A stretch of 46,606 nt of DNA from positions 1 through 46,606 of the forward strand of contig NZ_BMXG01000008.1 in the NCBI RefSeq assembly GCF_014651635.1, in the 5' to 3' direction. Within the stretch, counting starts at the first letter, position 1; every line of letters starts with the position of its first letter. This document shows positions 21,401 to 43,933 of this stretch, piece after piece. The notes beneath the pieces are model-generated. The model did not search any database. It saw only the letters and a list, made by a program, of their open reading frames with translations, and was not told where the DNA came from. The DNA comes from Cerasicoccus arenae. Its GTDB lineage: Bacteria > Verrucomicrobiota > Verrucomicrobiia > Opitutales > Cerasicoccaceae. A program made the translations under genes and the position numbers.

Positions 21401-22134
21401 AAACGCGCATCATCAGACACAAAGCCCTCGAAGCCTGTAATAACGCTAGCATCGACGCCACGTGGTGCATTCAGGGAATATTGGTAGCGTGGGTCCGCAT
21501 TACTGGTGATTTCCTCATCAACGCCCGAAGGCAGATTCACGCGGACTTTCAGGTTTTCATCGCCCACCCAGTAACCAAAGGAGCCAATGCCCTCAACATC
21601 CATTAGTCCCACACTCACATAGTCGTCTTGATAATTGGCGGCCTCGCCGTCTTCAACACTCAGAGTATTCGGCCCAACCAGAACCACCTGTGCATCCGGA
21701 TCGACCGCCGAACCGTCTGTGGAGATGTTCGGCGTAAAGCTAACCAATCGCTGAGCGGCTGGGGTACCGCCCTCTTCTACCGTCAGACCGGATGCCAGAT
21801 AGGTTAACAGCTCCCCTGTCGTAGAATCATAAACACCAGTGTAGAAGCGCTTGTTTCGTGGCAGTTCGGAATCTGTAATGTCAGCATTCGCAGTAACTCT
21901 CTGATCCGGTCCAAGGTAACGTTGAAGTTCGCCTAGGCTCACTTGCAGCGCCAGTAACGCCATCTGCCGTGCCTGCTGATCCTGCGTCGAATGCGTCGCG
22001 CTCTGCAGTTCTACCCGCACCAAAGTGGATAGACTGAGGATCAGCAAGATGATGAAGCCCATCATCGACAAAGCCACTACCAAGGCAAACCCTGGCTGTG
22101 GTTTCGAGAAACGACTATGATTTATACGGGGCAT
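18496..22134 (-). CDS. Verru_Chthon cassette protein A-like (pseudopilin-like)
   Basis: About 1212 residues from the ATG at 22134; the frame reaches a TTG at 22170 but only through a C13 tract. The N-terminus has a type IV prepilin/GspK-like leader: MPRINHSRFSKPQPG then FALVVALSMMGFIILLILSL, with a positively charged start and cleavage expected after Gly15. ARQMALLALQVSLGELQRYLGPDQRVTA follows, a typical signature of Verru_Chthon A proteins. The body is a long soluble region, and the C-terminal part (FRIRTYGRVDNS, AYLEAIVQRSPEP) also fits this family. These cassettes occur in Verrucomicrobiota and their function is poorly known; a surface appendage or secretion role is inferred from the leader. 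No other cassette genes lie in the window apart from the coupled small gene. Confidence 0.82.
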   Translation of the reverse strand: MPRINHSRFSKPQPGFALVVALSMMGFIILLILSLSTLVRVELQSATHSTQDQQARQMALLALQVSLGELQRYLGPDQRVTANADITDSELPRNKRFYTGVYDSTTGELLTYLASGLTVEEGGTPAAQRLVSFTPNISTDGSAVDPDAQVVLVGPNTLSVEDGEAANYQDDYVSVGLMDVEGIGSFGYWVGDENLKVRVNLPSGVDEEITSNADPRYQYSLNAPRGVDASVITGFEGFVSDDARLRDLSDFSLYQDGAFREQAGKAFHDITFHSAGVQSNTRDGGLKKDLSLAFEMTDAKFQSNADFTGKYPAPYVNHRVNYVFLEDVGRGANYGIRGPTWDLLRNHYRLYKEVEKVGDGYQLASRIEGPRQPAASHSYEHNIPHQWNMQYNIEPDDPSVRDYAISSGNLVIRPTSEAIHPLVASIRYQYSARLRPITTDYRFKMAQLFGLDINKQGTPSEFDTHYVELIWDPVITLWNPYNVMLTFTGYKLRTREIPTTFEFRIGEARPLRPYDVGIRPEVRNDWRIYDPENWYLGNGNYDIKFGDMIGGRDKSNNGFVENGLSVVIGQPNQTITLEPGELKVYSIVENSAVSLYDYLEISGDNPNAVFFTAKEGWEDRSGFYVFSPVTGRVEPLKDELDNTIAEVQSVQFRVRSRWEQPGMEYYLQGYLFDDYNSAAAAKLSPDEDPNQLQMFELSGVDQWKEEWVDYPDNFTDVLPFDSPIWNSDKVQVGNMNYYMKPANEIRRPVALAQYNNPRARTNARLPNQDYESVDPLWIWDHREAQLGVFIDAQNHGFWGSSMEGGDTHVVLYETPTVPMTSIGSMMHVNASIRGHYPLYAMGDSFAPPFLASNAALYQTFENDRNDTDIYYWDQSYLMNQALWDGYFFSTISPKTTDAFDDKQNLGEVLSDFEDGKGFLANERFVEVSNGSLTLSEAVLNGGNTVDDIVLESPGFSAGHLLLSGAFNVNSTSPNAWKALLAALRDEAVSYLDAQTGNRQLDSEQGSVFSRSSLPSGDSHALWRGFVRLSDVELEALAMEIVNQVRARGPFMSLSDFVNRQVKSKTGNTLPADDPLSLSGALQTAIDASEINENSERESSTDYFQNQDAAEGNTFNGAPGILLQSDLLAGLGPVISVRSDTFRIRTYGRVDNSLTGGIVSEAYLEAIVQRSPEPVVRAANDATMADYYEPDLADAFGRRFKIVHFRWLNKSEI

Positions 22135-22147
22135 GGGGGGGGGGGGG
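22135..22147 (-). repeat. C13 tract directly upstream of the Verru_Chthon A start codon
   Basis: Thirteen G on the plus strand, hence thirteen C immediately before the ATG at 22134 on the coding strand. It fills the place of a ribosome binding site. No Shine-Dalgarno sequence is visible, so tract length could alter translation or, if translation starts upstream at TTG 22170, the frame. Confidence 0.9.
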
Positions 22148-22625
22148 AGGATCTTAATTGATGATCTCAATTAATGAAGTAGAAGACAATGCTATAGTTG
22201 GCTACACCATTGATTGTATCAAGTAAAACGGGGTCTTTGTACACAGTTAACTAAGAACTAAGAACAATACCCTGTGAGGGCATTAAATGGGGGGGCGAAC
22301 TGGCTGAGGGGGGGGGGGAACAGGAGTCAAGAACTGGCAAATAGCATAAACACGCACGCCTGTTAGGAAGTAACGGCAAATTGACGTGATTCGCGCCGTA
22401 TTTCACTGACCTCCATGCGTTCCAACCCAGTATTAAGTAGGGGAATTCTTTAAGCATGGATTTTAGGGATTAAGGGTAAGCAATCATTATGGCTGAAAGT
22501 GCGATCACCGTAATATAAAAGTGCTCATTTTTACATCATTAATTTTTAATCTAAAACACGCAATCACGACAATGTCGCCCATATCTCGATTGATTAATGA
22601 GCCGCGCGTGCATCGTGTTCAGATC
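22148..22625. other. Intergenic region with two poly-G runs, upstream of Verru_Chthon A
   Basis: This gap of about 480 bases lies between two minus-strand genes and must contain the Verru_Chthon A promoter. It has a G7 run (22289-22295), a G11 run (22308-22318) and the palindrome AGTTAACT near 22242 followed by the short tandem ACTAAGA ACTAAGA. I see no gene and no clear terminator for the glycosidase gene ending at 22626. Confidence 0.5.
22308..22318. repeat. G11 tract upstream of Verru_Chthon A
   Basis: Eleven consecutive G, 13 bases after a G7 run. It lies about 175 bases upstream of the Verru_Chthon A start codon, where a promoter could sit, so tract length might change promoter spacing. 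Confidence 0.85.
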
Positions 22626-25166
22626 TTACTCTATGGGCTTGTTGTAGAACACCTGCGCCGAGGCTATGTTTACGTAATTATACGGATCTCTACCACCGCC
22701 ATTGCTCGCGGTATAACGTTCATTGCTTTGGAGATAGCTCATATTGCGCGAATACTCGTCTTCGCTCAGATGGATCTGATAATCCTCGCCCGACTGCAAC
22801 TCGACTTCAATCGCGTTGGATAAATCCCAGCGCAACCAGCTTCCAGACTGTGGCATCACCACGTAGCCGGCCCCAACGATGGGTCCAGACGATTGGCGGA
22901 CTTCAAGCCTTTTTACTGCACATGTGATGCCAGTATTGATTGGGCCTGAGCCGTTGGAAAACTCCATGCGAACATGGTAGACCCCTGCTCGATCAACCTG
23001 AAAACTGTTAGTCGTCAGTTCGTGATTGGGACGGCCCCAATTTTCAAAATGATGCTGATCAGACAGGTTGCCTCCTCTATTTTTCATCTCATTGGAAGGG
23101 AGAATGATACGCTGATTTTCGGTACGATAAGCACGGCTCTGCGTGGGATGCGATACGTTTCCACTCTCAGGATAAACCGCCTCCACCACATACGCATAAA
23201 TGGTATCCGCATAGTTGCCCGAATCAAGATCCACCCACTCAGTCACTCGGAGGTTTTCTGCACAGCGTTTACCATTCCGATAGATGTTAAATACGACCTC
23301 GCCCACCTCATCATGTCGGAAGCTCAAACGCAATTTCCCGTCGACAACCATGACCGCACCGCGCGCATCATCCCACTCTGGTTGAAGTGGCCCAAAAATC
23401 TTTTTTTCCTTGGTTACGTCCACCACACGAATCGACGCCAGCTTACTCCCCTGCCCCACTGGTGCCTCCAAAAATATTTCCCATTGGTTATGGCTAAGTA
23501 AGGCGTCTGCCTCGACGAAGCCCGTGGGAACTTGCACACCATTAACCATCACCCGGGCAACCGTGCAAACGCCCTCCTGAAATGAACCCACCGCTGGCAA
23601 ATGAACGCGGACATCGTTCCACTTATCTTTATATGCGAGGTGATTCAACTCAATGATGTTCGTATCAGCGAAAAGCTCGTTGCGCAGACCCGCGGTGATG
23701 TAAGGCTGAAACTGAATGCCACGCAGGCTCGTCTCCATTCCAAAAACAACATCTTGCACCATCGATAAATAGCCCGCGACGGACCACAATTGACGGCGAG
23801 AATTGATCACGGGCCCATGACGCGGACCAGTACGGACGTCTGCCTTTCCAGATATGTAATCGTAATTTTCCATATTAGATAAATTCTCCATCGCTAGGGT
23901 CATCAGTGAATCGATGCCAGCGTCCACCGCTGCCGGATTATTGGCCTGCCGCGCCGCCTTGGTCCAGTAAGCCGTAACGAATGGCCATATTCCTTGATTA
24001 TGGTAAATGGGGACATTTTTGACTTCCGGCCAGATAACCGGAGGTCCGAACGGACCTGTCGGGTAGCTCGCAATGACACGTTGAACCTGACGCTCATCCG
24101 CCACATCAAGCAGGATGGCCAATGATTGCCCGAGCAAATCATAACGCTTCAGCGGCAGGTAATACACACCATCTTCCGACAACAGATACGTCCGGTAAAG
24201 GCCGGCCTCTTCATCATAGAAATGTTGATTTATCGCCGCCTTCAGTTCATCCGCCCACAGTTGATAGCGTATTCGATTTTCTCCATCGCCCAGCGCACCA
24301 GCGTACTCCGCCGCGGTCTTGAGCAGGAAGTAATTTGCCGCATTGACTGAGACCGCCTTGGAATTCCCGATGACACCAACGTTGTCTGCCGACCATTGCG
24401 GGTAGCTTTGCTCGCGCCAATCGAGGAAGGAATGTTCACCGCGATAGAGGCCATCCCGTGGATCAAAAACCAAGCAACGATCTTGCTCAATTGTGTTGCA
24501 CAATATCGGATAGACCTCACTCAGGAAGTCCCGCCGCCCTGAGCCGGATAAATATTTCATCGTCTCATGTGCGCCAATCGCCCATACGACGCGGTCGGAC
24601 GAGATCGGATAACTGCCGCCCGATCCGGTGTCCTGAACCATTTGTTCTGCGTAACCACCGCGCACGGATGGCTTAAGTGCTGAGGCCTTAAACATCAACG
24701 ATGCTGCCGCACGCTCTGGATTAAAAGCCGCCAACGATAGGTGCAGGGAATATGCCAGGTCGCGCGTCCAGACATAGGACCACTTTTCACCTGTTTGAAA
24801 CGCCTGAACATTGACCGACTCACCATTCGCGTAAGCATAGTCACTGATCTGATTGACCGAATTTTCGCGCGCTTCTCTAATAGCCAGAGCGTAGAGTCCA
24901 TCGAAGGCTACATTGCCGGTCCGTGTTCGTGCGTAATCCGCATCTTCTTCAATGGTAATACGCTTGCCCTCCGGTCGATTATCGCGCAATTCCGCACGCG
25001 TCGTTAATTCATATCCCTGCACATCGCCTTTCTTGACGAGTGTTATCGACGCCTGTGATTCCGGGCGCGAGCCACCATCATCCGCATAGCCCAAACATGT
25101 AGCCATCATGAACATAATACTCCGAGATGCGATCCGGCGTTCGATTAAAAGAAGGAGATTGATCAT
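22626..25166 (-). CDS. Secreted six-hairpin (alpha/alpha)6 glycosidase with C-terminal beta domain
   Basis: An 846-residue exported enzyme; the start MINLLLLIERRIASRSIMFM with cleavage near CLGYA looks like a signal peptide. The catalytic part, about residues 120-560, has (alpha/alpha)6-barrel segments: SYVWTRDLAYSLHLSLAAF (~129-147), MVQDTGSGGSYPISSDRVVWA (~180-200), FLDWREQSYPQW, VNAANYFLLKTAAEYAG, RYDLLGQSLAILLDV and NQGIWPFVTAYWTKAA. These resemble GH15/GH63/GH133-type six-hairpin glycosidases. I cannot name the exact GH family or the catalytic acids. A C-terminal carbohydrate-binding-like beta-sandwich (~690-845: HHFENWGRPNHELTTNSFQVD, GSWLRWDLSNAIEVEL) follows. The starch-locus context and divergent orientation to a GH13 amylase suggest an exo-acting or debranching glucosidase. 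Confidence 0.75.
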   Translation of the reverse strand: MINLLLLIERRIASRSIMFMMATCLGYADDGGSRPESQASITLVKKGDVQGYELTTRAELRDNRPEGKRITIEEDADYARTRTGNVAFDGLYALAIREARENSVNQISDYAYANGESVNVQAFQTGEKWSYVWTRDLAYSLHLSLAAFNPERAAASLMFKASALKPSVRGGYAEQMVQDTGSGGSYPISSDRVVWAIGAHETMKYLSGSGRRDFLSEVYPILCNTIEQDRCLVFDPRDGLYRGEHSFLDWREQSYPQWSADNVGVIGNSKAVSVNAANYFLLKTAAEYAGALGDGENRIRYQLWADELKAAINQHFYDEEAGLYRTYLLSEDGVYYLPLKRYDLLGQSLAILLDVADERQVQRVIASYPTGPFGPPVIWPEVKNVPIYHNQGIWPFVTAYWTKAARQANNPAAVDAGIDSLMTLAMENLSNMENYDYISGKADVRTGPRHGPVINSRRQLWSVAGYLSMVQDVVFGMETSLRGIQFQPYITAGLRNELFADTNIIELNHLAYKDKWNDVRVHLPAVGSFQEGVCTVARVMVNGVQVPTGFVEADALLSHNQWEIFLEAPVGQGSKLASIRVVDVTKEKKIFGPLQPEWDDARGAVMVVDGKLRLSFRHDEVGEVVFNIYRNGKRCAENLRVTEWVDLDSGNYADTIYAYVVEAVYPESGNVSHPTQSRAYRTENQRIILPSNEMKNRGGNLSDQHHFENWGRPNHELTTNSFQVDRAGVYHVRMEFSNGSGPINTGITCAVKRLEVRQSSGPIVGAGYVVMPQSGSWLRWDLSNAIEVELQSGEDYQIHLSEDEYSRNMSYLQSNERYTASNGGGRDPYNYVNIASAQVFYNKPIE

Positions 25167-28614: not shown

Positions 28615-29913
28615 TCACTCTTCGACGTCATCTACAAAGCGGACACAGATCGCGGCAATAAGCATGGAAACACCACCGAGAATGACTGCATTCATGGTGT
28701 TACCGCCCAGCAGCGTGGACATCACTTTGCCTAGGCCTAGCGAAGCCGCGATTTGCGGCAGCACGATGAAGAAGTTGAACACCCCCATATAGAAGCCCAT
28801 CTTTTCAGCTGGGATTACGTTCGCCAACATCGCGTAGGGCATCGAAAGAATGCTCGCCCAAGCCACACCCACGCCCAGCATGGAGAGCAGCAGCATCGAA
28901 GGCGAACCAATCACCATCACCGAGAGCAGCCCCAGCGCACCGATTCCCAGACACACGGTATGAATGCCCTTGGCACTGAATTTTCGAACAAGCAAAAGTA
29001 GGAGAAAGGAAAAGGCAAAGGCCACTCCATTATAAACGGAGAAACACACGCCGCCCCACTCCGCACCAGCCTGATATTCAGGGCTTCCCTGAGCGCCTCC
29101 GAACACATGCGTGGCAATGGCCGGGATGAAATAAATCCACATGCAAAAAAGGCCAAACCAAGTGAAAAATTGCACTACGGCAAGCTGCTTCATTGCTTTA
29201 GGCATGGAGCCAATACCTTGGAAAATTTCCTTGAACGCCGTGCTTACGCCAGCTGATTCTCTCTTCTGCTTCTCAAAAGCCTCGATATCCTCCGGCGGGT
29301 ATTCCTTGGTCGTCAGTATGGTGTAAACCACCGCGCAGAAGAACACCACCGAGCCCACATAAAAAGCAATGTGCACAGCCTGCGGAATCGCATTTCCGGA
29401 CGCTTTCTCCGTCACACCAAACCAGTTGGTCAGCATCCAGGGAAGCGATGAACTCAAGACAGCGCCGAGTCCTATCAGCAAACTTTGCATTGCAAAGCCA
29501 ACCTTTCGCTGATCCTTGTTGAGCATGTCTCCGACAAAAGCGCGGAAGGGCTCCATGCTGATGTTTACCGAGGCGTCCAATATCCAAAGCAGCCCGGCGG
29601 CCATCCATAGCGAACTACTGTTGGGCATCGCAATCAGGGATAAGCTGGCGAGGATCGCCCCTACCAAAAAATATGGGTGTCGGCGGCCAAGTTTCGTCCA
29701 TGTGCGGTCACTGTAGTATCCGACGAGGGGCTGGATCAATAACCCGGTCAGAGGCGCGGCGAGCCAGAGGAAAGCAATCTCGCCTTCCTCGGCACCCAGA
29801 TACTGATAGATCGCGCTCATGTTGGCCATTTGAAGGCCCCAGCCGAACTGGATACCAAAAAAGCCGAAGCTCATATTCCATATTTGCCAGAAGGATAAAC
29901 GAGGTTTCTGCAT
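28615..29913 (-). CDS. MFS sugar transporter, probably for maltose/maltodextrin
   Basis: A 432-residue membrane protein with about twelve hydrophobic helices. The N-terminus (LSFWQIWNMSFGFFGIQFGW) and the loop YYSDRTWTKLGRRHPYFLVG, with its SDR...GRRHP motif, match the MFS group that includes bacterial MalY/MalA-like maltose carriers and SLC45-type symporters. It sits directly after malQ (56 bases) in the same direction, so import of maltose or short maltodextrins is the likely job. In the window it is the only visible importer for the locus: no SusC/SusD pair and no ABC transporter is present. Substrate is inferred from context. Confidence 0.88.
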   Translation of the reverse strand: MQKPRLSFWQIWNMSFGFFGIQFGWGLQMANMSAIYQYLGAEEGEIAFLWLAAPLTGLLIQPLVGYYSDRTWTKLGRRHPYFLVGAILASLSLIAMPNSSSLWMAAGLLWILDASVNISMEPFRAFVGDMLNKDQRKVGFAMQSLLIGLGAVLSSSLPWMLTNWFGVTEKASGNAIPQAVHIAFYVGSVVFFCAVVYTILTTKEYPPEDIEAFEKQKRESAGVSTAFKEIFQGIGSMPKAMKQLAVVQFFTWFGLFCMWIYFIPAIATHVFGGAQGSPEYQAGAEWGGVCFSVYNGVAFAFSFLLLLLVRKFSAKGIHTVCLGIGALGLLSVMVIGSPSMLLLSMLGVGVAWASILSMPYAMLANVIPAEKMGFYMGVFNFFIVLPQIAASLGLGKVMSTLLGGNTMNAVILGGVSMLIAAICVRFVDDVEE

Positions 29914-29969: not shown

Positions 29970-31553
29970 TCATTTGGTAGTCACACTTTCGTGCAAGCTA
30001 ACATGCAATCCGCGCTTTGTCGATATCGTGAGTTCAGACAATTCAGCCATCGCCGTTCCTAGTGGCTCGATGGAATCTAAGCGCCAACGCCAACTTCCAG
30101 AAGCCTGCCCCGGCGTATTCATTCGCGCTTCCGAGCCAAGCCCTATCAAATCCTGAACGGGCACGATGGCTGCCGCGCAATTCGACTCGTAAAGGCGACG
30201 GATGAAATCTTGATGGATTTTCGATCCGTCAGTGCCGAAATAGTGCATTGCGTTAACTCGCTCTGCCTCGATTTCGTCTGCGCTCCGCGTGCTACCGTTG
30301 CCCGATTGGCTATGGAACCAGCCCGCCACAGTATCGTTGTCATGCGTGCCAGTGTAGGCGACACAATTTTCGTCGTATGCCTCCGGTAAAAAAGTGCTTT
30401 TCATCGGATCAGTGCCAAACGCAAATTGCTCAACACGAATACCGGGCAGGAAAAATCTATCGCGCAGCGCCGTGACCTCCGACGTAATCACGCCTAGGTC
30501 CTCGGCAATAACCGGTAAAGGCAAACCAATGTCGCGCACGAAGGCTTCCAACACCTCTTCGCCGGGGGCCTTGACCCACGCACCATCGATCGCCGTCTTC
30601 GCGCTGCCGGGGATTTCCCAGAAGGCCTCAAAGCCGCGAAAATGATCAATCCGAACGATGTCCACCCAACTGAGTACCTTACTGAATCGCTTACGCCACC
30701 AGGCAAAATCCTCGGCCCGATGCTGATCCCAGTCATAAAGTGGGTTGCCCCAAAGCTGTCCGGTCTTGCAAAAATAGTCAGGCGGCACGCCCGCCATGAC
30801 CGCCGGACTGCCATCACGATTCAATCGGAATAAATTCGGTTGTCTCCACACATCCACACTATCATGCGCAATAAAAATCGGTAGATCGCCAATAATTCGA
30901 ATGCCTCGCTTTTGTGCCGTCTCACGTATGTCTTCCCACTGCCGGTACAGAAGAAATTGCTCCAGCTTGGCACGCTCAATTTCTTTCGCAAGTTCCCGCC
31001 TCGCAGTGCTCAGGGAAAAGGCGTCCCGGTCACGATAAAGCAGCGGCCATTCTGCCCATGCCTTACCGCCAAACCGCGATTTTAACGCGGAGTAAACCGC
31101 GAAGTCTTCCAGCCAATAAGACTCCACGTCGAGAAACGCCTCGTATTGGACTCGTAGCGGATCGCCTGGTTTCAACTTCACAAACGCCAGTGCAGCACAG
31201 ACGCTAAGCTTATGTTTATTCTCATAGACAGCTTGGTATTCGACCGTTCGCCCACAAGGGATACGTAATGAGTCAAGGAAGTCATTATCGATCAGGCCCA
31301 GCTGATGCAGGTATTCCGGACTGAGAAAAATCGGGTTGGCGGCAAAAGCTGACAAGCCCTGATAGGGCGAGTCACCGTAGCCTGCGGGATTGAGTGGCAG
31401 GATTTGCCAGAGGTTCTGCCCATGATCGGCGAGAAAATGAATCCAGTCATGCGCACAAGGGCCGAAATCACCGGCTCCGTAATCATTGGGCAGTGATGTC
31501 GGATGCAGGAGCAACCCGCAATCTCGATGAAATAGCTTAGGAGCCTGCTTCAC
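29970..31553 (-). CDS. malQ: 4-alpha-glucanotransferase (amylomaltase, GH77)
   Basis: A 527-residue cytoplasmic GH77 enzyme that transfers alpha-1,4-glucan segments and releases glucose from maltodextrins. The start LHPTSLPNDYGAGDFG and NLWQILPLNPAGYGDSPYQ are MalQ hallmarks. Catalytic regions are VRIDHFRGF with the nucleophile Asp (~302), VIAEDLG with the acid/base Glu (~351) and YTGTHDNDT (~402). IRIIGDLPIFIAHDSVDVW also matches. The start is GTG at 31553, supported by AGGAGGAAGG just upstream and by full-length alignment with the family. It is in one direction with the secreted GH13 gene upstream and the transporter downstream. Confidence 0.95.
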   Translation of the reverse strand: MKQAPKLFHRDCGLLLHPTSLPNDYGAGDFGPCAHDWIHFLADHGQNLWQILPLNPAGYGDSPYQGLSAFAANPIFLSPEYLHQLGLIDNDFLDSLRIPCGRTVEYQAVYENKHKLSVCAALAFVKLKPGDPLRVQYEAFLDVESYWLEDFAVYSALKSRFGGKAWAEWPLLYRDRDAFSLSTARRELAKEIERAKLEQFLLYRQWEDIRETAQKRGIRIIGDLPIFIAHDSVDVWRQPNLFRLNRDGSPAVMAGVPPDYFCKTGQLWGNPLYDWDQHRAEDFAWWRKRFSKVLSWVDIVRIDHFRGFEAFWEIPGSAKTAIDGAWVKAPGEEVLEAFVRDIGLPLPVIAEDLGVITSEVTALRDRFFLPGIRVEQFAFGTDPMKSTFLPEAYDENCVAYTGTHDNDTVAGWFHSQSGNGSTRSADEIEAERVNAMHYFGTDGSKIHQDFIRRLYESNCAAAIVPVQDLIGLGSEARMNTPGQASGSWRWRLDSIEPLGTAMAELSELTISTKRGLHVSLHESVTTK

Positions 31554-34175: not shown

Positions 34176-35222
34176 TTAACGAATCTTGCGCACACTTGGC
34201 CCGTGAATCCAGGCACTTTCGATTTGTACCACTTGAGGATACTTCTGCGGGCCAAATTCATTCTTATATAACTGCCCCGCCACAAGGTCCACACCCGCAC
34301 TGCCAACCACTCGATTGTTCTGGCGCATACCGGCGATATGCGGAATGCCGTCATGCCAATCCAAGTGCACTAGGCCCATGTCCGTCGGAAATGAGACACC
34401 CGTATCAAGCATGACATCGTAGAGCTCTGTCTTATTCGTGATGATCACATCAGGCTCATGCTGCTGAATCGCCGCGATAGTTTCCGGGAGATTCTCATCA
34501 CGATAATTCACTGGCATGAGGAAATTCTCCGGCGACAAAAAACGCACCACACTTAGAAAACCGGCGCTGAACTTATCATCGAGTAATTTGTCGTCCTGTG
34601 TCGGCACCACAAGCAAGGGCCGCTTATAACCATATTCCAAAACCATCTGCGTCGCACGACGCGCAGTGAGGTATTGATCATTCGAGGCGCAGTTCAAATT
34701 GTCATTAAAATGCGTGACGCCGATTACCGCACAGGCAAAGTCATTCCAAAAGTCAGAGTAGTCATGTTGATGAATCGTTTTCTGGTCTAGTGAGGCAATG
34801 AGAATCAAGCCATGAATGCCCCGCGCTAGTAGGATCTGCTTTAGCCGTTGCGGACGGAGATCTGGCTGCTGGAGCCAGAATTCCTCAACTCCATAGCCCA
34901 ATTGCTCAGATCGACGAAGGACTCCTTCGCGGAGACGACGGAATGTATGGTTCTTGCAGATGTCCTTTTCGGGCGAACAGTTAACCAGCCCAAGATTGGC
35001 GCGAAAGTTCGGCTGATGCCCAGCGCGCAGCTGAGTCATCAACGAATCAATCACTGGATTTCGGCGGTAGCCTAAGTCCTCGGCAATTTTAGCAATTCTC
35101 TTCCGAGTCACCTCGGGGATACGTGGATCTTTACGTAGGGCAAGCGAGACAGCTGATTTACTAACACCAGCAGCATCGGCGATATGTTGCATGTTGGGGC
35201 GCTTGGGGGGGGGGACGGCCAT
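34176..35222 (-). CDS. LacI-family transcriptional regulator
   Basis: A 348-residue LacI/GalR-type regulator. The helix-turn-helix is at residues ~10-30 (NMQHIADAAGVSKSAVSLAL), followed by the hinge region VTRKRIAKIAEDLGYRRNPV. A periplasmic-binding-like effector domain follows (RGIHGLILIAS, GYKRPLLVVPTQDD, PDVIITNKTELYDV, DMGLVHLDW). It probably senses a maltodextrin-derived ligand and controls the surrounding starch genes, and itself through a dyad near its start. It lies between the GH13-malQ-MFS genes and the divergent giant enzyme. The start MAVPPPKRP contains a C10 tract; a downstream in-frame ATG (residue 11, MQHIADAAG) could restore translation if the tract slips, at the cost of the first ten residues. 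Confidence 0.93.
   Translation of the reverse strand: MAVPPPKRPNMQHIADAAGVSKSAVSLALRKDPRIPEVTRKRIAKIAEDLGYRRNPVIDSLMTQLRAGHQPNFRANLGLVNCSPEKDICKNHTFRRLREGVLRRSEQLGYGVEEFWLQQPDLRPQRLKQILLARGIHGLILIASLDQKTIHQHDYSDFWNDFACAVIGVTHFNDNLNCASNDQYLTARRATQMVLEYGYKRPLLVVPTQDDKLLDDKFSAGFLSVVRFLSPENFLMPVNYRDENLPETIAAIQQHEPDVIITNKTELYDVMLDTGVSFPTDMGLVHLDWHDGIPHIAGMRQNNRVVGSAGVDLVAGQLYKNEFGPQKYPQVVQIESAWIHGPSVRKIR
35205..35214 (-). repeat. C10 tract at the start of the LacI-type gene
   Basis: Ten G on the plus strand code on the minus strand for VPPP, eight bases after the A of the ATG. A one-base change would frameshift translation from that ATG, but an ATG at residue 11 lies beyond the tract. Confidence 0.9.
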
Positions 35223-35485: not shown

Positions 35486-38400
35486 ATGCCCCCCCCCCCC
35501 TTCACTATTGTGAATTCAGTTTTCCGCTGCATTCTCGCCTTGTTTTTAGCAGTCATAGCACTCAGCCGCTCAGCCTCGGGCGAAACCATGTTGCAATATT
35601 TCAACACGGACTGGGCCGAGATTACCAACAAAATGCCAGAATTGGCAGAAGCCGGGTATTCCTCTCTGTGGCTCCCCCCCCCAACCAAAGGAAGTGGCGG
35701 CTTGTCGGTTGGCTATGATTTGTGGGATCCCTTTGACTTGGGAGGCATCGATCAGCGCAACACCGTGCGCACCCGTTACGGAACGGAAGCTGAATTACTG
35801 GAGTTGGTCCGCACGGCGCATCGTTTCGGCATCCGCATCTATTTTGACAACATCATGAACCATCGGGCCTTCGATATCCCTGGTTACAACGAAAACACTC
35901 CGATCGACATCTACCCAGGCCTTGTTCCCGAAGACTTTCACCTGCGAACTACTCAGGAAGGATTTTACCGCAAATGGGACAATACCCGCGACTGGAATAG
36001 TGCATGGCAGGTCCAGAACCTCGGACTCGCCGACCTCATTGATATCGCCCAAGAGCCAGGAACGACTAATCAAAACTTCGGTGCCAGCGAGGGCAGCACT
36101 TTTCCAAAAATCAAAATCATCCGTGATCTAGATCGCCCCGAGCATTATGCTTACGACAAAGACGGCAATTACGTGGGCTTTGGCGGATTACTCTCCATAG
36201 CCGAAAGCTTACTCAACGACGAGGGTTCCCCCTCCCCCAGTCAGGAGGAAATCACCGCCCGCGCAAAACAATACCTTCAGGACAACGCGAACGTCTATGA
36301 GGAATACGTGCAGGACTACCTCAACCGTGCCGCACGTTGGCTGATCGACCGTACTAAGAGCGACGGGCTTCGCCTAGATGCCGTTAAGCACGTCCGTGCC
36401 GATTTTTTTGGTGCAACCTACGGAGAGGATAAAGACACCAATGACTACGGTTATTCCGGCCAAGTCCAACGCCAATTCAACCTTACCCGAGGCTTCAGCG
36501 ACCCCAATCACCGCGACACCGTATTTGACACTGAGGCACCGCGTGACGACGCCATGCTCTTTGGCGAGCACCTCGGCGAACCTCCAGGTTACGGCCCGTA
36601 TTTCGACTCAGGCATGCGCTTGGTCGACAACCCGCTCCGCCAACAACTCAACGATAGTCTAGGCAGCCCATGGAACGGCTTAAACGGTCTCGACGCACCG
36701 GGTGCCGGGGGGTTCGCACCGGGCTTAACCGTCATGCACGCGCAAAGTCATGACAATGACTACGCCTCCCGCCGTGAACTCCAACACGCCTTTTATTTCA
36801 CCCGCGCAGGCCTAGGCTTGTTATACACCGACGGTAACTACCAGGCAGAAACCTTGGGTGAATCCGGCGGCGCGTTTCCCCGTCATGCCAATACTGCCTT
36901 CCTCGGCCAGTGGGACGACGCCCGCGTTCCCAACCTACTCCATATTCACGAGCAATTCGCCCGCGGCTACCAGCAGGGAAAATGGTCCGACGGCGACGTC
37001 GTTATCTACGAACGTGTTGATAAACGCGAAAACGGCGGCATGAGCGACGCCGACGGCGTGACGATGCTGTTCATGCTTAATGACGACTACTCCTCCGGCC
37101 ATGGACGTAATTTCGGGACCAGCTTCCCCAGTACTGCGGGTGGCTCAGATGCCTACTTATACAACTACTCCACATACGGTGGTGGGTTCTACCAGTATGC
37201 TTCAAACATCGTCAACGGATCAACTGTCATCCCGGCCGGTGGCTACTTCATCTTTTCCTGGAAGAACCCAGACCCATCTGATCTCTGGTCGTCGTCTGGA
37301 GGACGCCCGATCACCATCTACCAGAACGACGAAGAAGTCAGCACGATCAATGTGCTTCGCCGTGACGGCCCAAATGGTGACGCAGATTTCTTTGGTGACA
37401 CCTTGCCCGCTGAGACACGTCCAATCATTAGTAACGCCAACAACAGCGACTACGCCTACACCGCCACCCTCCCCCGCATCACCAACGGCAATGACTTGAA
37501 ATTTGTCGCGCGTGTCGACGGTTCCGCGGAAAATGTGCTTTTTAAGCTGGACGGTGGCATTGATCTCAATGGCGCACGCCCAACCTCAACCAATGTCGGC
37601 CTACCCAACAACGATCCAGTCAACCGAGACAATCCACCCGCGTTATCTTGGGACATGTTACTTGGCTTTGAACAACCGACGTTCGTAGACCGTATTCACC
37701 CCGAGCTCTTTGCCGCAAAGGTCACGGGTACCCGTGACATCACTGGTTCGACCGGCGCGGAAACCTATTCCAAAGTCATCGGCGATCCCAGCTTTACAAT
37801 CAATGAAGGAAGTGGCGCTCGCTACATCGACAGCAACACTGCCAGTTTCCTTTTCCACGACCCAGAAGTCACAGTAACAGGCGATGCTGCGGTAACGGAA
37901 AACATGTATAACAACGATGGCGGTAGCATCACCCTCTGGGCTAAAACCAACGCAGTCGGCGCTGGCTACCTCATGCATGTTTATTACACGACCGACGGTA
38001 GCCCCCCTGAAGGCGCAGCTGGAGAAGCTCATGGCGCAACGCAGGTCGCCGAGATGAATTACCAACACAACGACGACGGCGATGCAACTAATTGGTGGAT
38101 GTCGGCCAGTATCCCTGCCCCGTCCAATGGCGAAACACTCCGCTATAAAATTTCCATATATAAAAACGGTGCCGCGAGCGTTTTCCCTGATGGCTCGGTG
38201 ACCGTTGCACGCAAAACCAAAATGCTGACCGAATTCGCCATTGATAATTTTGACGCCACCACGGTTGAGTTTTACCCACACTACGACTACGCCACCGATC
38301 CTAGCGGCACGCCATTAATAACCACTGGGCTCGATGAAGGTTTCCACATGCTCCAAGCCCGTGCATTCCTCGACCGCTCTGGTCGCGCCTCGATTTACAA

Positions 38401-41400
38401 CACCTTCAAGCAGACATTTTACTACGACAACGAACGCCCACAGGGCGAAGTCCGCTTCCCTGAAAACAATGGCGACACGGTCGGCGGCTCACGCTATGGA
38501 TTAGTTATCCGCACCGACGCCACCGTCACTGAAGTCTGGTATCGTATCGAAGATTCCGACCCCTCCAACGACGACATTGAAACAGGCGGTAGCAATGGCA
38601 ACGGCATTGGCTTTGAACCGTTTATCGACACCAACCAAAACGGCGTCCGCGACACTGGAGAAGCGTATGAGGATCTCAATAGCAATGACACTTGGGACAG
38701 CAATCTCGTCAATAATTGGGTACGCGCTTCCGAACTGACGCCTAGCTTATCAATTACACCTTCTGACCCAGCGTTCCGTAAGGAATGGCGCTTCGACTAT
38801 GTCAACATTCCCTCAAGTGGTACGGCGGACATAAAAGTCCGGCTGCGAGAAATTTCATCTGCTGGCTATCAAGATTTTGCTCTAAATGACGTGAACGGGC
38901 ACTACACAACTCTTGTGCGTAACGTAAACACTGCTGGCCCAGACGAACGCATGTTCATTGCCTTCCCATCAAGCGATGGTGAAATCGTAAGCGACGACTA
39001 CGTCATGAAGGTCTACTTCTCCAAGTCACTTGCAGATGGACTCACTGAACAGCAACTCATTGACCGTTTCCTCATCAGAATTGGATCGACCGAAGATGGT
39101 GACGCAGGCGAGACTCAGAGCCGCGACAACTACATCATTCAATACAACGTCACAAATAACTACCACGCACTTACCTACGAACTGCCCAATCTTTACAACG
39201 ACATTCCTGACTACGATCACAAGATCTCTGTCACACACGATCGGCCAGTACCCGCGATCGACTTCGAGTCGACCCGTATCGTGCGAGCTCTCCCCGTTAC
39301 TACGCCTCGAGTGCTCATCGTGAATCCACCGGAGTTAGGCTCGGATGGACGGCCCTACGAAATTATTCTGCCGGATGTGCCATCGCCGTCCCCTGACCAG
39401 CGTCAATTCACGATTCAGGTGGCGACCAATGTCAACGCCACGGATGTTAGCTTGAGCTTTGTCAATCTGCGCGGCTCTAGTATCGGCACGCCGACCACCA
39501 GCATCGAGGGCAGTAGCAAACTGTGGAATTTCCTCTGGTCAGACATCGCCAAGGGCAGTTATCGCTTCACCGCAATCGTGAACTCGCCGGGTGGTGAAAA
39601 CACTGCCGATCGCAATGCCACGATCATCTTCCTAGAGCTTGTGAGCGAGGATGAAATCGACAGCGACGACGACGATGATGGCCTTCGCGACAACGATGAG
39701 AACACCGCTCAATATTTGCCTAACCAAAGCCCAGACGGCGGCATCACACCCGCACCAAAGCCGAATCCAGAGCAATGGCTCAATGGCGAAGTCCATGTCT
39801 ATTACGCTTATGGCCGCTCGAATCCGCTGTCACCGGATTCCGATGGCGACGGCTTACCCGACGGGCTCGAAGTTGGCTGGCGTAACGCGAGTAATCCGCC
39901 AACCGATCCGACTGCTGATACCAACGGTGACAGCTTCCCGAACTTCATCAGTGACATCGACCCTCCGTTCTACAACACGCTTGATAACTACGGTAATGTG
40001 CCCAACGTCGATAGCCAGAGCCAAGGCGGCGACCGGGCCAAGCAAGTTGCCGGCACGGTAACCGATCCATCCAATCCGGACTCCGATAGCGACGGTATAC
40101 TTGACGGCGTTGAGGACGCCAACCGCAACGGCTGGGTTGATGGTGACGGCGAAAGCCTCCCCGCAGATTTCGATCCATACTTGGCCCGCGACTGGCCCAA
40201 CGGTGTAATCGATCCAAGCGAAACTTGGCTCGAAACTGACCCAACCAATCAAGACACCGATGGCGATGGTGCCACTGATGGCTACGGCGAGGATAAAAAC
40301 TTTAATGGCGTAATTGACGGCGACACCAACGGTAATCGTATCTATGACGCTGGTGAAATCTGGTTGGAAACAGACCCACTCAACAATGACACCGATGGTG
40401 ACGGCCTGCCCGATGGCTGGGAAATAAACAACGGACTCGATCCACTGGTTAATGACACCGACTCATTGCGCACGGCAGCAATCGATGATGGCGATTCAGA
40501 ACAAGGTGCAACAGGTGATCCTGATAACGACAATTTAACCAACCTACAGGAGTTGGTCAACGGCACACGTCCACTTGAAGATGACAATCTACCTCCGCCA
40601 GCAGCTAACTCGATTGCCATTGGCCCCGGAGATGACGGCAGTATCGGAAACACTAAGAATCTCAATGAGTTTACCGATTGGACGATCGACGATCTGCTTG
40701 TTTTGGATGAATATGATGGCAACGGAGCGAACAATCAGGGAACAGATATTTACAAGGCCTACGACGGCTTCGACAGTTCCCGCGACATTGTTGCGTTCTA
40801 CTTCCGTGATGGTGGAGCGGACGGTAAAATTTATTTCCGCCTCGACCTTCAAGACCTACGGGCGCTAGCCGAAGAAGGTAATCTCGACACCTATATCGTC
40901 ATTGATACTGGCAACACAAGTGTGGGCGAATCCGCCTTGCCGGATGAAATAGACACCCGCACTGAAATGAAATGGGAACTCGTCGTTGCGATTTACCAAA
41001 CCGACAATGGCGCGGTTTACATTGATACCGACGCTGGCAACAACAGCACCGCAATTGGTGAAGACTTAAACGCACGGGGGGTCATCCGTCGCACGCAAAG
41101 CAGCGTAAATGGATTCCTCCGGGCCTACTTCAATGCTGAGCTCGATGCGGTCGAAGCGTCCATCAGCCGGCAAGCTCTCTTGGATGCAGGCTGGAGCGGC
41201 AATGCAGATGCGCTGAACTTCCAAGTCTACACAACACGCGACGGCACGAATAACTCACCGGAACCAGGCGCTGGAGACATCGGTGGCCGGAGCGACATCC
41301 GAGATTCCATTTACGACGACTTCATTGCTTCGTCCTACTTCCGTGACCAGAGCAGTATCGCGGGCTCTAAGAGCGTGCTCTACAGTTGGTTCAGCCGTAG

Positions 41401-43933
41401 CGGCTCCAACGATAGGGGCAAGCGCGCAAAGGTGGCGCTGATCACCCATGGTAATGAGCCCATTCGCTCCGCCAACGAAATCCAGGACCGCATCAACGAC
41501 GATGCTGATGCTGGATATTATCGTTTAATCGACGCCCACGAGGCCTTCGGAGCACCTGTCAATCTGCACATTACGCCGACTCTCGCATCCGCAATCCAAT
41601 GGGCAAAAGTAGATCCTGCACTCGGCAAGCTTTGGCGTGATGGTCCTACGCTGAATGACCGGATTGCCGGCTTATTGAGCGCCGGTGACGCCATGCTCTT
41701 TGGTACCACCTTTGCCGATCAGGTAACGCCTTACGCAACGCAAAACTTCACGGCAGATAGTGTTGAGTTGGCGAAAACGGTTCTCACGGAAATCTATGGT
41801 GCCGCACCTTCGAGCACAGTCTTCTGGCCAGCGGAACGCGTGGTCGACGACGCTGTTCTGAGCACCATCGAGAGCATGGGTTACACCCACACAGTCGTCG
41901 ACCAGATGCGTCATTACTTCAAGTGGTTTGGCCGTACCAATGCGCTTGGCGAGGCAGGTTACCGGATCAATGAGGTCAACAATATCAAGCTAATGCCGAT
42001 CCACGATTTTGCCAGCACCTTCCGCTTCCTCAATGAAGATAACGGCCTTAACATTTCACTACGAGAAGTGCTGAGCCGACGCGCACGTAGCGGCACGCAA
42101 GACCAGGTATTAAGCCTGCTCAGCGACTGGGGCGATTTCCGAAACATCGACAACGCCAACGGCTACGCAGTGAATCTGCGTTGGCTGGCTAACCGCCCAT
42201 GGATTGAGTTGGTCACCCTCGACGGCGTGGCGAACGGCGAAATCGATCTCTCCCAGCCTGCCGACGGCCTCGGCGACAATTGGGGATCGGTCGGCCGTGG
42301 AAGCGGCGTAATCCTCCAGAAAGTCGCCAAGGACTTCATTGATCACGCCACTCAGGAAAACTATGACAACTGGTATTACGGTCAACCTGGCCGAGAAGAA
42401 GGATTGTCTAACAAAGTGTTTGAAATCCGCCCCGGAGTTAATCTGCCGGATACATTCGGCGAAGTAGGCGTCAACGGCCTTGCGGATGATGCTTGGGCCG
42501 GCGTAGATGCAATCTCGAATCCAAACAGTGGGCAAGGACACCTTGGACGCTCCACCGCGCACGCCGCGATGTTCGTCACAGCTTTCCACAATCAATCCAA
42601 CTCAGACCTGAGCAAATTCAGCACGGGGGCATATATTTATCCGGATACGGACAATCAAACTCTCGCCGATTTCTCCAAACTTGCTCAGACTCAGATGCGA
42701 TTTGCCGCGCTGTATAAGCGTGTTGATGATTGGGCGGACAGTCCGCCAGTTGGAGCTGTCGCCAGCGCCGAAGATATTGATCTGGATGGCGAAAACGAAT
42801 ACCTTCTCTATAACGCAACTGGATTCGCCGCCTTTGAAGCAATCGGTGGACGCTGTGTCGCTGCCTTTGTCCGCAATCCACTGACGGGGGCGGTGTACCA
42901 AGTGATTGGCGCACAACCCACTTACGCCGACAGCCAAACCGAAGAGGAAGGTGCTAACAACGTTAGCGGTGATGAAATCGGCGCACGGCGCACCTCCGCA
43001 TTCAAGGATTGGTATGCCAATGGCAGCGGTGGCGGAACTAGCCAATACGTTAACGCGCTTTACAGCGTCTCTCCCAGCGGCGTAGACGGCTGGACCTTCA
43101 CTGCACCCGGCGGACACATTGTAAAGACAGTTTCAATCGACGATTCGCTCGCGGTCATCCAGGCAGACTACAATCTGAGTGGCGACGTCAACAAGCTCTT
43201 CGTCCGCAACGGCCTTTCTCCAAATCTCTGGAACTTGATTAGCCGTGGACAGGATGATCTTGATAGTTTGGTTAATGACGTGGATAAAAGCCAAGCCTAC
43301 CTCATCAATCGTAGCAGCGTTGAGCCTGTCACCGTTGTTCTTGAATACGATGCGGACGCCCAATTCGTCAGCACTGCCGTGGACGATGAACCTGGCGTGT
43401 TGGAATGGGACGCGATCAACCTGCGCAACCAGGCACTCGTCCAACAAACTGAGCTGACTAACCTCGACGGCCAGAGCAATTTCAGCATAAGTCTCAAACT
43501 CGAAACCGCCGCGACCGATTCCGATGGCGACTCCCTGCCCTCCTGGTGGGAACGAGATAATGGGTTGGACCCGGAAAGCGCAGTTGGATCCGATGGCAAA
43601 GATGGCAACCTCGACGGCGACTTGCTAACCAACGACGAGGAATACGTCCTTGGCTATAATCCGAATTTGGCCGATAATCACATGTTACCACAAGGCCAGA
43701 TTGGCCAGACAGAAAGCGGTAATTCCACGATCACCTTCCCCATTCTCGCTGGCCGCACGTATCGCATCTGGTACTCTGACAACCTCGAAAATGGCTCATG
43801 GCAAGATGCAGGTGCCTTCAGCACCACCAGCGATAATCCAGCCCATACATGGATCGATGACGGAACCTTTACCGAGCCAGATCCACAATTGGTTGATCGA
43901 CGTTTTTACCAGATAGAAATTACCCGGCCCTGA
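35486..43933 (+). CDS. Giant secreted GH13 enzyme with a GH57-like second catalytic module
   Basis: A 2815-residue exported starch-active protein. Start MPPPPFTIVNSV leads into a signal sequence (CILALFLAVIALSRSASG). Module 1, ~33-560, is a GH13 barrel: IYFDNIMNHRA, DGLRLDAVKHV with Asp298, LFGEHLG with Glu361, AQSHDND with Asp423. Modules ~560-1420 are beta domains, some probably starch-binding. Residues ~1450-1660 hold four calcium-binding type-3/dockerin-like repeats (DSDGDGLPDG, DSDSDGILDG, DTDGDGATDG, DTDGDGLPDG). Residues ~1700-1950 resemble a DOMON-type domain of GH57 enzymes. Residues ~1985-2400 resemble a GH57 barrel: ITHGNEP, LHITPTLASAI, VFWPAERV (Glu2117 as candidate nucleophile), SDWGDF (~2213-2218). 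A DTDGDSLPSWW repeat and a C-terminal domain ending RRFYQIE follow. GH57 assignment is tentative. Confidence 0.88.
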   Translation: MPPPPFTIVNSVFRCILALFLAVIALSRSASGETMLQYFNTDWAEITNKMPELAEAGYSSLWLPPPTKGSGGLSVGYDLWDPFDLGGIDQRNTVRTRYGTEAELLELVRTAHRFGIRIYFDNIMNHRAFDIPGYNENTPIDIYPGLVPEDFHLRTTQEGFYRKWDNTRDWNSAWQVQNLGLADLIDIAQEPGTTNQNFGASEGSTFPKIKIIRDLDRPEHYAYDKDGNYVGFGGLLSIAESLLNDEGSPSPSQEEITARAKQYLQDNANVYEEYVQDYLNRAARWLIDRTKSDGLRLDAVKHVRADFFGATYGEDKDTNDYGYSGQVQRQFNLTRGFSDPNHRDTVFDTEAPRDDAMLFGEHLGEPPGYGPYFDSGMRLVDNPLRQQLNDSLGSPWNGLNGLDAPGAGGFAPGLTVMHAQSHDNDYASRRELQHAFYFTRAGLGLLYTDGNYQAETLGESGGAFPRHANTAFLGQWDDARVPNLLHIHEQFARGYQQGKWSDGDVVIYERVDKRENGGMSDADGVTMLFMLNDDYSSGHGRNFGTSFPSTAGGSDAYLYNYSTYGGGFYQYASNIVNGSTVIPAGGYFIFSWKNPDPSDLWSSSGGRPITIYQNDEEVSTINVLRRDGPNGDADFFGDTLPAETRPIISNANNSDYAYTATLPRITNGNDLKFVARVDGSAENVLFKLDGGIDLNGARPTSTNVGLPNNDPVNRDNPPALSWDMLLGFEQPTFVDRIHPELFAAKVTGTRDITGSTGAETYSKVIGDPSFTINEGSGARYIDSNTASFLFHDPEVTVTGDAAVTENMYNNDGGSITLWAKTNAVGAGYLMHVYYTTDGSPPEGAAGEAHGATQVAEMNYQHNDDGDATNWWMSASIPAPSNGETLRYKISIYKNGAASVFPDGSVTVARKTKMLTEFAIDNFDATTVEFYPHYDYATDPSGTPLITTGLDEGFHMLQARAFLDRSGRASIYNTFKQTFYYDNERPQGEVRFPENNGDTVGGSRYGLVIRTDATVTEVWYRIEDSDPSNDDIETGGSNGNGIGFEPFIDTNQNGVRDTGEAYEDLNSNDTWDSNLVNNWVRASELTPSLSITPSDPAFRKEWRFDYVNIPSSGTADIKVRLREISSAGYQDFALNDVNGHYTTLVRNVNTAGPDERMFIAFPSSDGEIVSDDYVMKVYFSKSLADGLTEQQLIDRFLIRIGSTEDGDAGETQSRDNYIIQYNVTNNYHALTYELPNLYNDIPDYDHKISVTHDRPVPAIDFESTRIVRALPVTTPRVLIVNPPELGSDGRPYEIILPDVPSPSPDQRQFTIQVATNVNATDVSLSFVNLRGSSIGTPTTSIEGSSKLWNFLWSDIAKGSYRFTAIVNSPGGENTADRNATIIFLELVSEDEIDSDDDDDGLRDNDENTAQYLPNQSPDGGITPAPKPNPEQWLNGEVHVYYAYGRSNPLSPDSDGDGLPDGLEVGWRNASNPPTDPTADTNGDSFPNFISDIDPPFYNTLDNYGNVPNVDSQSQGGDRAKQVAGTVTDPSNPDSDSDGILDGVEDANRNGWVDGDGESLPADFDPYLARDWPNGVIDPSETWLETDPTNQDTDGDGATDGYGEDKNFNGVIDGDTNGNRIYDAGEIWLETDPLNNDTDGDGLPDGWEINNGLDPLVNDTDSLRTAAIDDGDSEQGATGDPDNDNLTNLQELVNGTRPLEDDNLPPPAANSIAIGPGDDGSIGNTKNLNEFTDWTIDDLLVLDEYDGNGANNQGTDIYKAYDGFDSSRDIVAFYFRDGGADGKIYFRLDLQDLRALAEEGNLDTYIVIDTGNTSVGESALPDEIDTRTEMKWELVVAIYQTDNGAVYIDTDAGNNSTAIGEDLNARGVIRRTQSSVNGFLRAYFNAELDAVEASISRQALLDAGWSGNADALNFQVYTTRDGTNNSPEPGAGDIGGRSDIRDSIYDDFIASSYFRDQSSIAGSKSVLYSWFSRSGSNDRGKRAKVALITHGNEPIRSANEIQDRINDDADAGYYRLIDAHEAFGAPVNLHITPTLASAIQWAKVDPALGKLWRDGPTLNDRIAGLLSAGDAMLFGTTFADQVTPYATQNFTADSVELAKTVLTEIYGAAPSSTVFWPAERVVDDAVLSTIESMGYTHTVVDQMRHYFKWFGRTNALGEAGYRINEVNNIKLMPIHDFASTFRFLNEDNGLNISLREVLSRRARSGTQDQVLSLLSDWGDFRNIDNANGYAVNLRWLANRPWIELVTLDGVANGEIDLSQPADGLGDNWGSVGRGSGVILQKVAKDFIDHATQENYDNWYYGQPGREEGLSNKVFEIRPGVNLPDTFGEVGVNGLADDAWAGVDAISNPNSGQGHLGRSTAHAAMFVTAFHNQSNSDLSKFSTGAYIYPDTDNQTLADFSKLAQTQMRFAALYKRVDDWADSPPVGAVASAEDIDLDGENEYLLYNATGFAAFEAIGGRCVAAFVRNPLTGAVYQVIGAQPTYADSQTEEEGANNVSGDEIGARRTSAFKDWYANGSGGGTSQYVNALYSVSPSGVDGWTFTAPGGHIVKTVSIDDSLAVIQADYNLSGDVNKLFVRNGLSPNLWNLISRGQDDLDSLVNDVDKSQAYLINRSSVEPVTVVLEYDADAQFVSTAVDDEPGVLEWDAINLRNQALVQQTELTNLDGQSNFSISLKLETAATDSDGDSLPSWWERDNGLDPESAVGSDGKDGNLDGDLLTNDEEYVLGYNPNLADNHMLPQGQIGQTESGNSTITFPILAGRTYRIWYSDNLENGSWQDAGAFSTTSDNPAHTWIDDGTFTEPDPQLVDRRFYQIEITRP
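35489..35500 (+). repeat. C12 tract immediately after the giant amylase start codon
   Basis: Twelve C form codons 2-5 (PPPP) directly after the ATG at 35486. Loss or gain of one or two bases would abolish the 2815-residue protein. No alternative in-frame ATG precedes the signal peptide. Confidence 0.95.
35674..35682 (+). repeat. C9 tract in the GH13 domain of the giant amylase
   Basis: Nine C code within LWLPPPTKG, a conserved early GH13 motif. A slip would truncate the protein after about 65 residues. Confidence 0.85.
39835..40446 (+). repeat. Array of calcium-binding type-3/dockerin-like repeats in the giant amylase
   Basis: Within the reading frame, four units with D-D-D-G-D/N-G-D patterns recur: DSDGDGLPDGLEVGW, DSDSDGILDGVEDANRNG, DTDGDGATDGYGEDKNFNG and DTDGDGLPDGWEINNGLDP. 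They are separated by segments of differing length, the second and third with extra inserted loops. They likely bind calcium and form a stiff linker between the two catalytic halves. Confidence 0.75.

Follow-up and report, generated by a model that had tools for sequence, protein, structure and literature searches.

A single polypeptide of 2815 aa, encoded in the window (the whole 46 606 nt stretch of Cerasicoccus arenae DNA that was analysed) by one uninterrupted ATG-started ORF of 2815 codons (35486..43933, plus strand), bears two evolutionarily unrelated starch-enzyme modules, GH13 and GH57, and this fusion is a conserved design in Verrucomicrobia. The nucleophile of the GH57 module is fixed in the family while its proton donor is variable. 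With belief and doubt about evenly matched, we propose that the protein is a secreted multi-module degrader of alpha-glucans, whose GH13 and GH57 modules would act on the same chains; its gene lies inside an alpha-glucan locus.

Table 1. Features of the fused gene product and of the neighbouring genes in the window
Feature	Residues	Coordinates	Strand	Basis
Signal-peptide-like N-terminus	1-32	35486..35581	+	Hydropathy
GH13 alpha-amylase module	33-640	35582..37405	+	Pfam PF00128, 50.3 bits (part alone)
GH13 nucleophile	D298	36377..36379	+	Stretch 283-308 matched to alpha-amylase 6sau
GH13 acid/base	E361	36566..36568	+	Motif
GH13 stabiliser	D423	36752..36754	+	Aligned to HD of 1mwo, weak second stretch
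Region without secure Pfam match	641-1440	37406..39805	+	Sub-threshold matches, e.g. CHB_HEX_C_1, Fn3_assoc
TSP3 calcium-binding repeats	1440-1700	39803..40585	+	PF18884, DxDxDG motifs
DOMON/CBM9-type beta-sandwich, like glucodextranase domain C and CBM74	1707-1974	40604..41407	+	AlphaFold, VIA
GH57 barrel and helical part	1978-2419	41417..42742	+	Pfam PF03065, model, VIA
GH57 nucleophile position	E2117	41834..41836	+	HHalign, conservation
GH57 proton-donor position	D2214	42125..42127	+	Model strand end, stand-alone relatives
C-terminal beta-rich domain, 4-alpha-glucanotransferase type	2424-2645	42755..43420	+	VIA against 1k1x
C-terminal tail and stop	2646-2815	43421..43933	+	Sequence; TSP3-like stretch by eye
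Divergent LacI-family regulator		34176..35222	-	PF00356, 46.7 bits
Second GH13 protein, 831 aa		31608..34103	-	PF00128, 64.5 bits
GH77 4-alpha-glucanotransferase (MalQ)		29970..31553	-	PF02446, 527.6 bits
MFS sugar transporter		28615..29913	-	PF07690, 94.9 bits
Third GH13 protein, 653 aa		25423..27384	+	PF00128, 103.3 bits
Amylo-alpha-1,6-glucosidase-like protein (GDE_C)		22626..25166	-	PF06202, 27.1 bits, cut-off 21

Architecture of the fused protein

In the Pfam scan of the whole protein both modules were found above their cut-offs, GH13 with 45.2 bits (E-value 1.1e-11, cut-off 22) and GH57 with 26.4 bits (5.4e-6, cut-off 21.2); the GH57 module begins ~1300 residues past the end of the N-terminal GH13 module. 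The presence of the two modules on a single chain had been proposed in an earlier reading made from the sequence only, and the scan bears it out; the motifs quoted in that reading were all found in the translation at the residues given for them.

The N-terminus of the protein resembles a signal peptide, having a hydrophobic core with a best 12-residue mean hydropathy of 3.26; therefore, the protein is probably exported. Among the 64 aligned proteins, all 61 whose N-terminus was of sufficient length, the window protein being one of them, reached a best mean hydropathy of 1.8 or more, in a comparison made by hydropathy with the first start codon in frame taken for the relatives. Calcium-binding repeats between the enzymes, another claim of the sequence-only reading, were upheld in part: TSP3 (PF18884) matched three stretches with 28.2 bits, over the cut-off of 25, when this part was scanned alone, but fell below it (21.2 bits) in the whole-protein scan. 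The C-terminal tail has an NCBIfam MtsD match at residues 2658-2732, of 17.2 bits and far below the cut-off of 800.

The catalytic triad of the GH13 module is intact, as had been read from the sequence. The motifs DGLRLDAVKH (at 293), GEHLGE (at 360) and QSHDND (at 420) hold D298, E361 and D423, respectively; these are conserved in 63, 64 and 64 of the 64 aligned proteins, the one exception being a gap at D298. Residues R296, K301 and H302 are present too, as judged by motif and conservation, and H422 is replaced by Ala in 2/64. The PDB profile match of this module was to alpha-amylase 1mwo (E-value 6.1e-36) and was strong only over the first ~87 barrel positions. Thus, the module has the triad of GH13 alpha-amylases of the 1mwo/1hvx type and is highly similar to them over the first third of the barrel, whereas the remainder of the module matches known amylases weakly by profile and, differently from those enzymes, the module forms part of a 2815-aa chain.

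Fold and family of the GH57 module

The AlphaFold model of residues 1962-2645, made with 62 sequences, had pLDDT of 92.1 and pTM of 0.92. The seven-stranded barrel that the sequence-only reading suggested looking for was present in the model and was of the GH57 type, an incomplete (b/a)7 barrel according to both the model and the fold comparison. The best Foldseek match was 1k1x, the 4-alpha-glucanotransferase of T. litoralis (E-value 6.6e-18), with TM-scores against GH57 entries being modest (0.30-0.50). In the VIA fold comparison rows 1-18 were GH57 enzymes with Z of 21.8-29.9; the top row was 9jlu (Z 29.9, 3.6 Å, 337 residues), while the alignment to 1k1x (Z 27.9, 494 residues, 9.5 Å) covered model residues 17-668, reaching into the C-terminal domain. 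Another GH57-type amylase, 4cmr, had Z of 18.3. Entries 1k1x, 1k1w, 7e1y, 1ufa and 2b5d are ones which we take to be GH57.

The barrel and helical part are therefore the same, by fold, as in the T. litoralis 4-alpha-glucanotransferase (1k1w/1k1x) and in the Aquifex aeolicus GH57 amylopullulanase (9jlu), with 1k1x sharing also a part of the C-terminal domain. These known enzymes are single-enzyme chains with 14-15% identity to the module; in the present family, the donor is not fixed.

Comparisons at the sequence level gave weaker signals. A PDB profile search with the GH57 stretch reached 1k1w at an E-value of 0.2, too weak by itself, and a weak DVDxDGxxE..N stretch of the C-terminal domain (4.9 bits) is common with the known structure. 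Still, all 29 members of alignment A1 matched GH57 in Pfam at E-value up to 1, and no other Pfam family was common to the 29, the rest being single weak matches. When the module was compared by HHalign with three further GH57 protein sets, the nucleophile region was aligned with E-values from 8e-5 to 0.011; in the same three comparisons strand 7 was not aligned, the scores there being weak. Among the five conserved sequence regions of GH57, CSR-3, which carries the nucleophile Glu on strand 4, was located by profile, CSR-4, the region of the donor Asp on strand 7, via stand-alone relatives, and CSR-1, CSR-2 and CSR-5 by eye; by eye, too, the canonical His position of CSR-1 seems to be Asn (N1990) in the window protein.

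Some other seven-stranded barrels score well against the model, GH38 with Z up to 19.6 and polysaccharide deacetylases up to 18.6 in VIA, and one could ask whether the module belongs to one of these families. Because the GH57 rows stand above them, both identities were rejected; given also that the 4-alpha-glucanotransferase alignment enters the C-terminal domain and that GH57 alone is common to the A1 members, we consider such an assignment very improbable. The second region is GH57-like, as first read from the sequence: its Pfam match is over the cut-off and its model matches solved GH57 enzymes ahead of all others.

Conservation of the fusion

Genome contigs were scanned with the GH57 stretch; this gave 159 relatives, of which the best 80 were taken as loci. 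Titles of these 80 records name Verrucomicrobia, Kiritimatiellae/Kiritimatiellaeota, Pontiellaceae or Lentisphaerae, or else no taxon (L089, L094, L119 and L124); Brevifollis gellanilyticus (L068) and Haloferula rosea (L096) are among the records without a metagenome-bin label. Frames longer than 2500 aa were observed in 63/80 loci, eight of the 63 reaching a contig end. Among the other 17 loci, 14 have a frame that is open at the left, in one of them with a masked stretch, and three, L081, L104 and L117, have shorter frames; these three have no contig end on the left and are possibly split or frameshifted copies. In L078 the frame starts within the GH13 module. The full-length alignment was made of the 63 loci and the window protein, the 17/80 whose frame did not exceed 2500 aa or had a masked stretch being left out. 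The GH13 triad and the GH57 nucleophile were found together in 63 of the 64 aligned proteins, L109 having a gap. Pairwise distances for the GH13 and GH57 modules of 62 proteins correlate (Mantel r 0.64, with 0/999 permutations as high), as is expected of a long-standing single chain.

As the window genome is in 63 contigs, one might suspect an assembly or annotation artefact that fused two genes. The long frames in relatives, which come from other records and in some cases from isolates, rule out an artefactual joining, to which we give a negligible probability; the fusion is confirmed.

In whole-genome sampling, a match to the GH57 stretch was seen in 5/54 relatives and in 37/387 genomes of the phylum, the window's own genome being counted in both. 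Open frames around these matches were mostly 2500-3400 aa, some shorter; in one genome (G296) the matches were only distant and stand-alone. The frame of 26 627 aa around the match in G205:C61 (L040) perhaps reflects masked sequence or a contig of an unusual kind. The three remaining genomes of the genus (G001-G003) gave no match to the GH57 stretch; they have no fused gene and yet keep other GH57 genes. No description of a GH13-GH57 fusion was found among the matches listed in a search of titles and abstracts of open-licence papers, nor in the parts of PMC11046441, PMC7205989 and PMC5010890 that were available. Thus, the suggestion that such a fusion is rare is consistent with the literature searched but not with its recurrence in the phylum.

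The nearest sequence relatives outside the family are ten stand-alone verrucomicrobial GH57-related proteins (L127-L136; 1103-1264 aa, 24-27% identity). As the matched region begins in them at residue 249-353, there is no room, by length, for a 600-aa module ahead of it. Nine of the ten belong to genomes in which the module of the fused gene has a close relative as well.

Active site of the GH57 module

Four motifs mark the GH57 module: HGNEP at 1988, LHITPTLASAI at 2027, FWPAERVVDD at 2113 and SDWGDF at 2213, the last one with D2214 and D2217. The counts that follow refer to 88 distinct family members, obtained from 109 GH57 stretches after removal of 11 duplicates and of 10 repeats of the same gene from two collections.

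The assignment of Glu2117 as the GH57 nucleophile, made earlier from the sequence, was borne out by HHalign, which pairs it with Glu of other GH57 proteins from the same and related genomes, and by conservation, with Glu in 87/88 family members and in 10/10 stand-alone relatives. The sole exception is L056, with Asn in place of Glu, though it is located in the donor-keeping clade.

Since HHalign left strand 7 unaligned, the donor was placed via the stand-alone relatives and the secondary structure of the model. D2214, 97 residues past E2117, is the last residue of strand 7, which spans 247-253 in the model; in the alignment with the ten stand-alone relatives it falls on the second D of their FDDWE(A). 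The motif of known GH57 enzymes is DDGExFG, which the FDDWEA of the relatives looks like. The donor Asp is present in 10/10 of these relatives, in a region that reads FDDWEA(F/L/Y), unlike in the fused family, where position 2214 is occupied by D in 38 members, N in 21, H in 7, M in 5, G and S in 4 each, W and A in 3 each, R in 2 and Q in 1; that is, 50/88 have no Asp there. With the 10 repeats left in, as in the tree, D2214 was counted in 38/98, and at 99% identity in 36/86. Of the Asp expected near 2214-2217, the window protein has D2214, which ends strand 7 at the donor position; more than half of its family have another residue at 2214.

On a tree of 98 rows (10 of them repeats) built without the columns in question, position 2214 has undergone at least nine changes. 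All 13 members of the window's clade have D2214, while it is absent from the two first-branching rows and from all 35 rows of the group that follows, several of these forks being open. Because the donor Asp is absent in 50/88 and its position changed so many times, the canonical pair does not seem to be required in the family as a whole.

In the 50 members without D2214 eight residues were unchanged in 50/50: E2117, Q2140, H2143, R2193, W2233, W2239, W2296 and H2368. This indicates that the GH57 site is under strong constraint though its canonical acid is not; judging by the model, these residues may line one shared pocket. Such a fixed nucleophile with a variable donor implies that the module is either an enzyme whose acid is placed loosely or, in many lineages, a pseudo-enzyme that binds glucan.

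The second of these possibilities deserves serious weight, although we hold it to be less probable than the degrader proposed above. It says that GH13 alone is catalytic, that the GH57-derived module is a glucan binder or scaffold and that Asp2214 is a helix N-cap and no acid. The ten residue types at the donor position speak for it, and so does the local structure: as strand 7 stops at 2214 and is followed by a helix from 2215 on, 2214 is the N-cap and 2217, with D/E in 83/88, the N3 position. Acids at the helix N-cap and N3 are the capping-box pattern; since this pattern fits, the acids at 2214 and 2217 are explicable without catalysis. Further, four other residues were lost slightly more often in rows without the donor: H1988, H2028, R2118 and D2139 were kept in 45, 46, 46 and 46 of the 50, as compared with 38, 38, 37 and 38 of the 38 with the donor. 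Simple decay would, however, hardly have spared the eight invariant residues.

A pseudo-enzyme of this sort would be of a known kind, as the available parts of PMC6037648 describe GH57 'like' groups that have lost one or both catalytic residues. Many members of the present family without the donor Asp are alike to these proteins; the family differs from those described there in keeping the nucleophile almost throughout and in the fused GH13 triad, and the window protein differs in having both GH57 residues. One Opitutaceae bacterium GH57 sequence is placed on a branch of its own in the same source, as far as it was available, and may belong to the present family.

Alternatively, the module could be active in the whole family, with the acid/base supplied from 2216 or 2217 where 2214 is not Asp. 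We observed an acid at 2216 in 42/50 members without D2214 versus 12/38 with it, and every one of the 88 rows has an acid in at least one of the positions 2214, 2216 and 2217. Nonetheless, this coupling of 2214 and 2216, strong in raw counts, was unsupported on independent pairs of the tree: in five supported independent pairs 2216 differs in 0.7 on average (sign test p 1), and helix capping accounts for D/E2217. Such relocation appears unlikely. We are just as reserved about the broader picture of phylum-wide secreted GH13-GH57 megaenzymes with a fixed GH57 nucleophile and an acid that repeatedly shifted its place at the strand 7 end (2214, 2216, 2217), so that one catalytic fold would work with acids at different sites.

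Returning to the degrader hypothesis, the window protein has both the GH57 nucleophile and the donor, and activity of its GH57 module is plausible; in over half of the family such activity is doubtful because the donor Asp is absent. The earlier description of a 'dual-action' enzyme is thus supported in part: dual activity is possible in the window protein, with both modules and both GH57 residues in place, and doubtful in the 50 members without the donor. As to the kind of action, we saw nothing in the sequence of the window protein pointing to a pullulanase over an amylase or glucanotransferase.

Beta-sandwich between the enzymes

Residues 1696-1984 were modelled by AlphaFold with pLDDT of 90.0. 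In VIA the model matched glucodextranase 1ug9 (Z 15.2), Sas6 7uwu (15.1) and CBM74 with maltodecaose 7uwv (14.9), the CBM74 likeness extending over 209-212 residues with Z of 14.9-15.1; CBM9 had Z of 8.8 and antibody rows 6.2 and less. The likeness to CBM74 and glucodextranase comes from VIA only: Foldseek with the same residues gave no match at E-value up to 1e-3, with antibodies heading the list, the profile search of PDB sequences with the beta-sandwich family profile gave none at E-value up to 10, and the Pfam scan of this part had no match. Hence, the domain called 'DOMON-like' in the sequence-only reading is such at the level of fold in VIA, but not by Foldseek E-value or by sequence. 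The fold is the same as that of CBM74 of Ruminococcus bromii Sas6 and of domain C of Arthrobacter glucodextranase (Z about 15), with no sequence match to either in these searches. Because of this resemblance, we infer starch binding as a candidate function of the domain.

Genomic neighbourhood

Upstream of the fused gene, genes for LacI, GH13, GH77, MFS and GDE_C proteins lie on the opposite strand and one more GH13 gene lies on the plus strand (Table 1); its location is an alpha-glucan locus. A similar LacI gene was found just upstream and divergent in 14/80 loci, some of them distant (L062, L079, L099 and L100), which suggests a dedicated regulation of the fused gene by a LacI-type regulator; two more LacI matches (L065 and L092) were elsewhere in the flank. 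When nine neighbours from the window were compared with the flanks, a gene similar to at least one of them was observed in 22/80 loci and none in 58/80, the flanks being short. GH13, GH57 or GH77 genes were found near the fused gene in L047, L068, L074, L075, L076, L099, L100, L116 and L123, the neighbour match in L068 being weak (23.6 bits, cut-off 22). Flanks of L055, L086, L089, L096 and L126 had proteins of other kinds or no alpha-glucan match, as seen in the scan of 16 flanking proteins from eight loci.

Two large proteins were noted in passing. A 1169-aa protein with GH57 and Fn3 is encoded in L100 (16234-19740), two genes downstream of the fused gene. Near the window locus, a 1224-aa protein (18496-22170) has by eye a hydrophobic prepilin-like start; it had no Pfam match at E-value up to 0.001.

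Proposed function and significance

In the proposed degrader, starch or glycogen would be held by the beta-sandwich, and alpha-1,4 chains would be cut internally by the GH13 module. The GH57 module, with E2117 and D2214, would be a retaining hydrolase or glucanotransferase working on these chains too. The MFS carrier could then take up the oligosaccharides, for processing by the GH77 and GH13 enzymes encoded nearby.

With two unrelated amylase folds and, between these, a module that has the shape of a starch binder, the chain is a natural design for the attack on starch or glycogen. The family also offers a natural experiment on what GH57 catalysis needs, as the same framework occurs in it with and without the canonical acid. 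If active, its members would be new enzymes from environmental bacteria.
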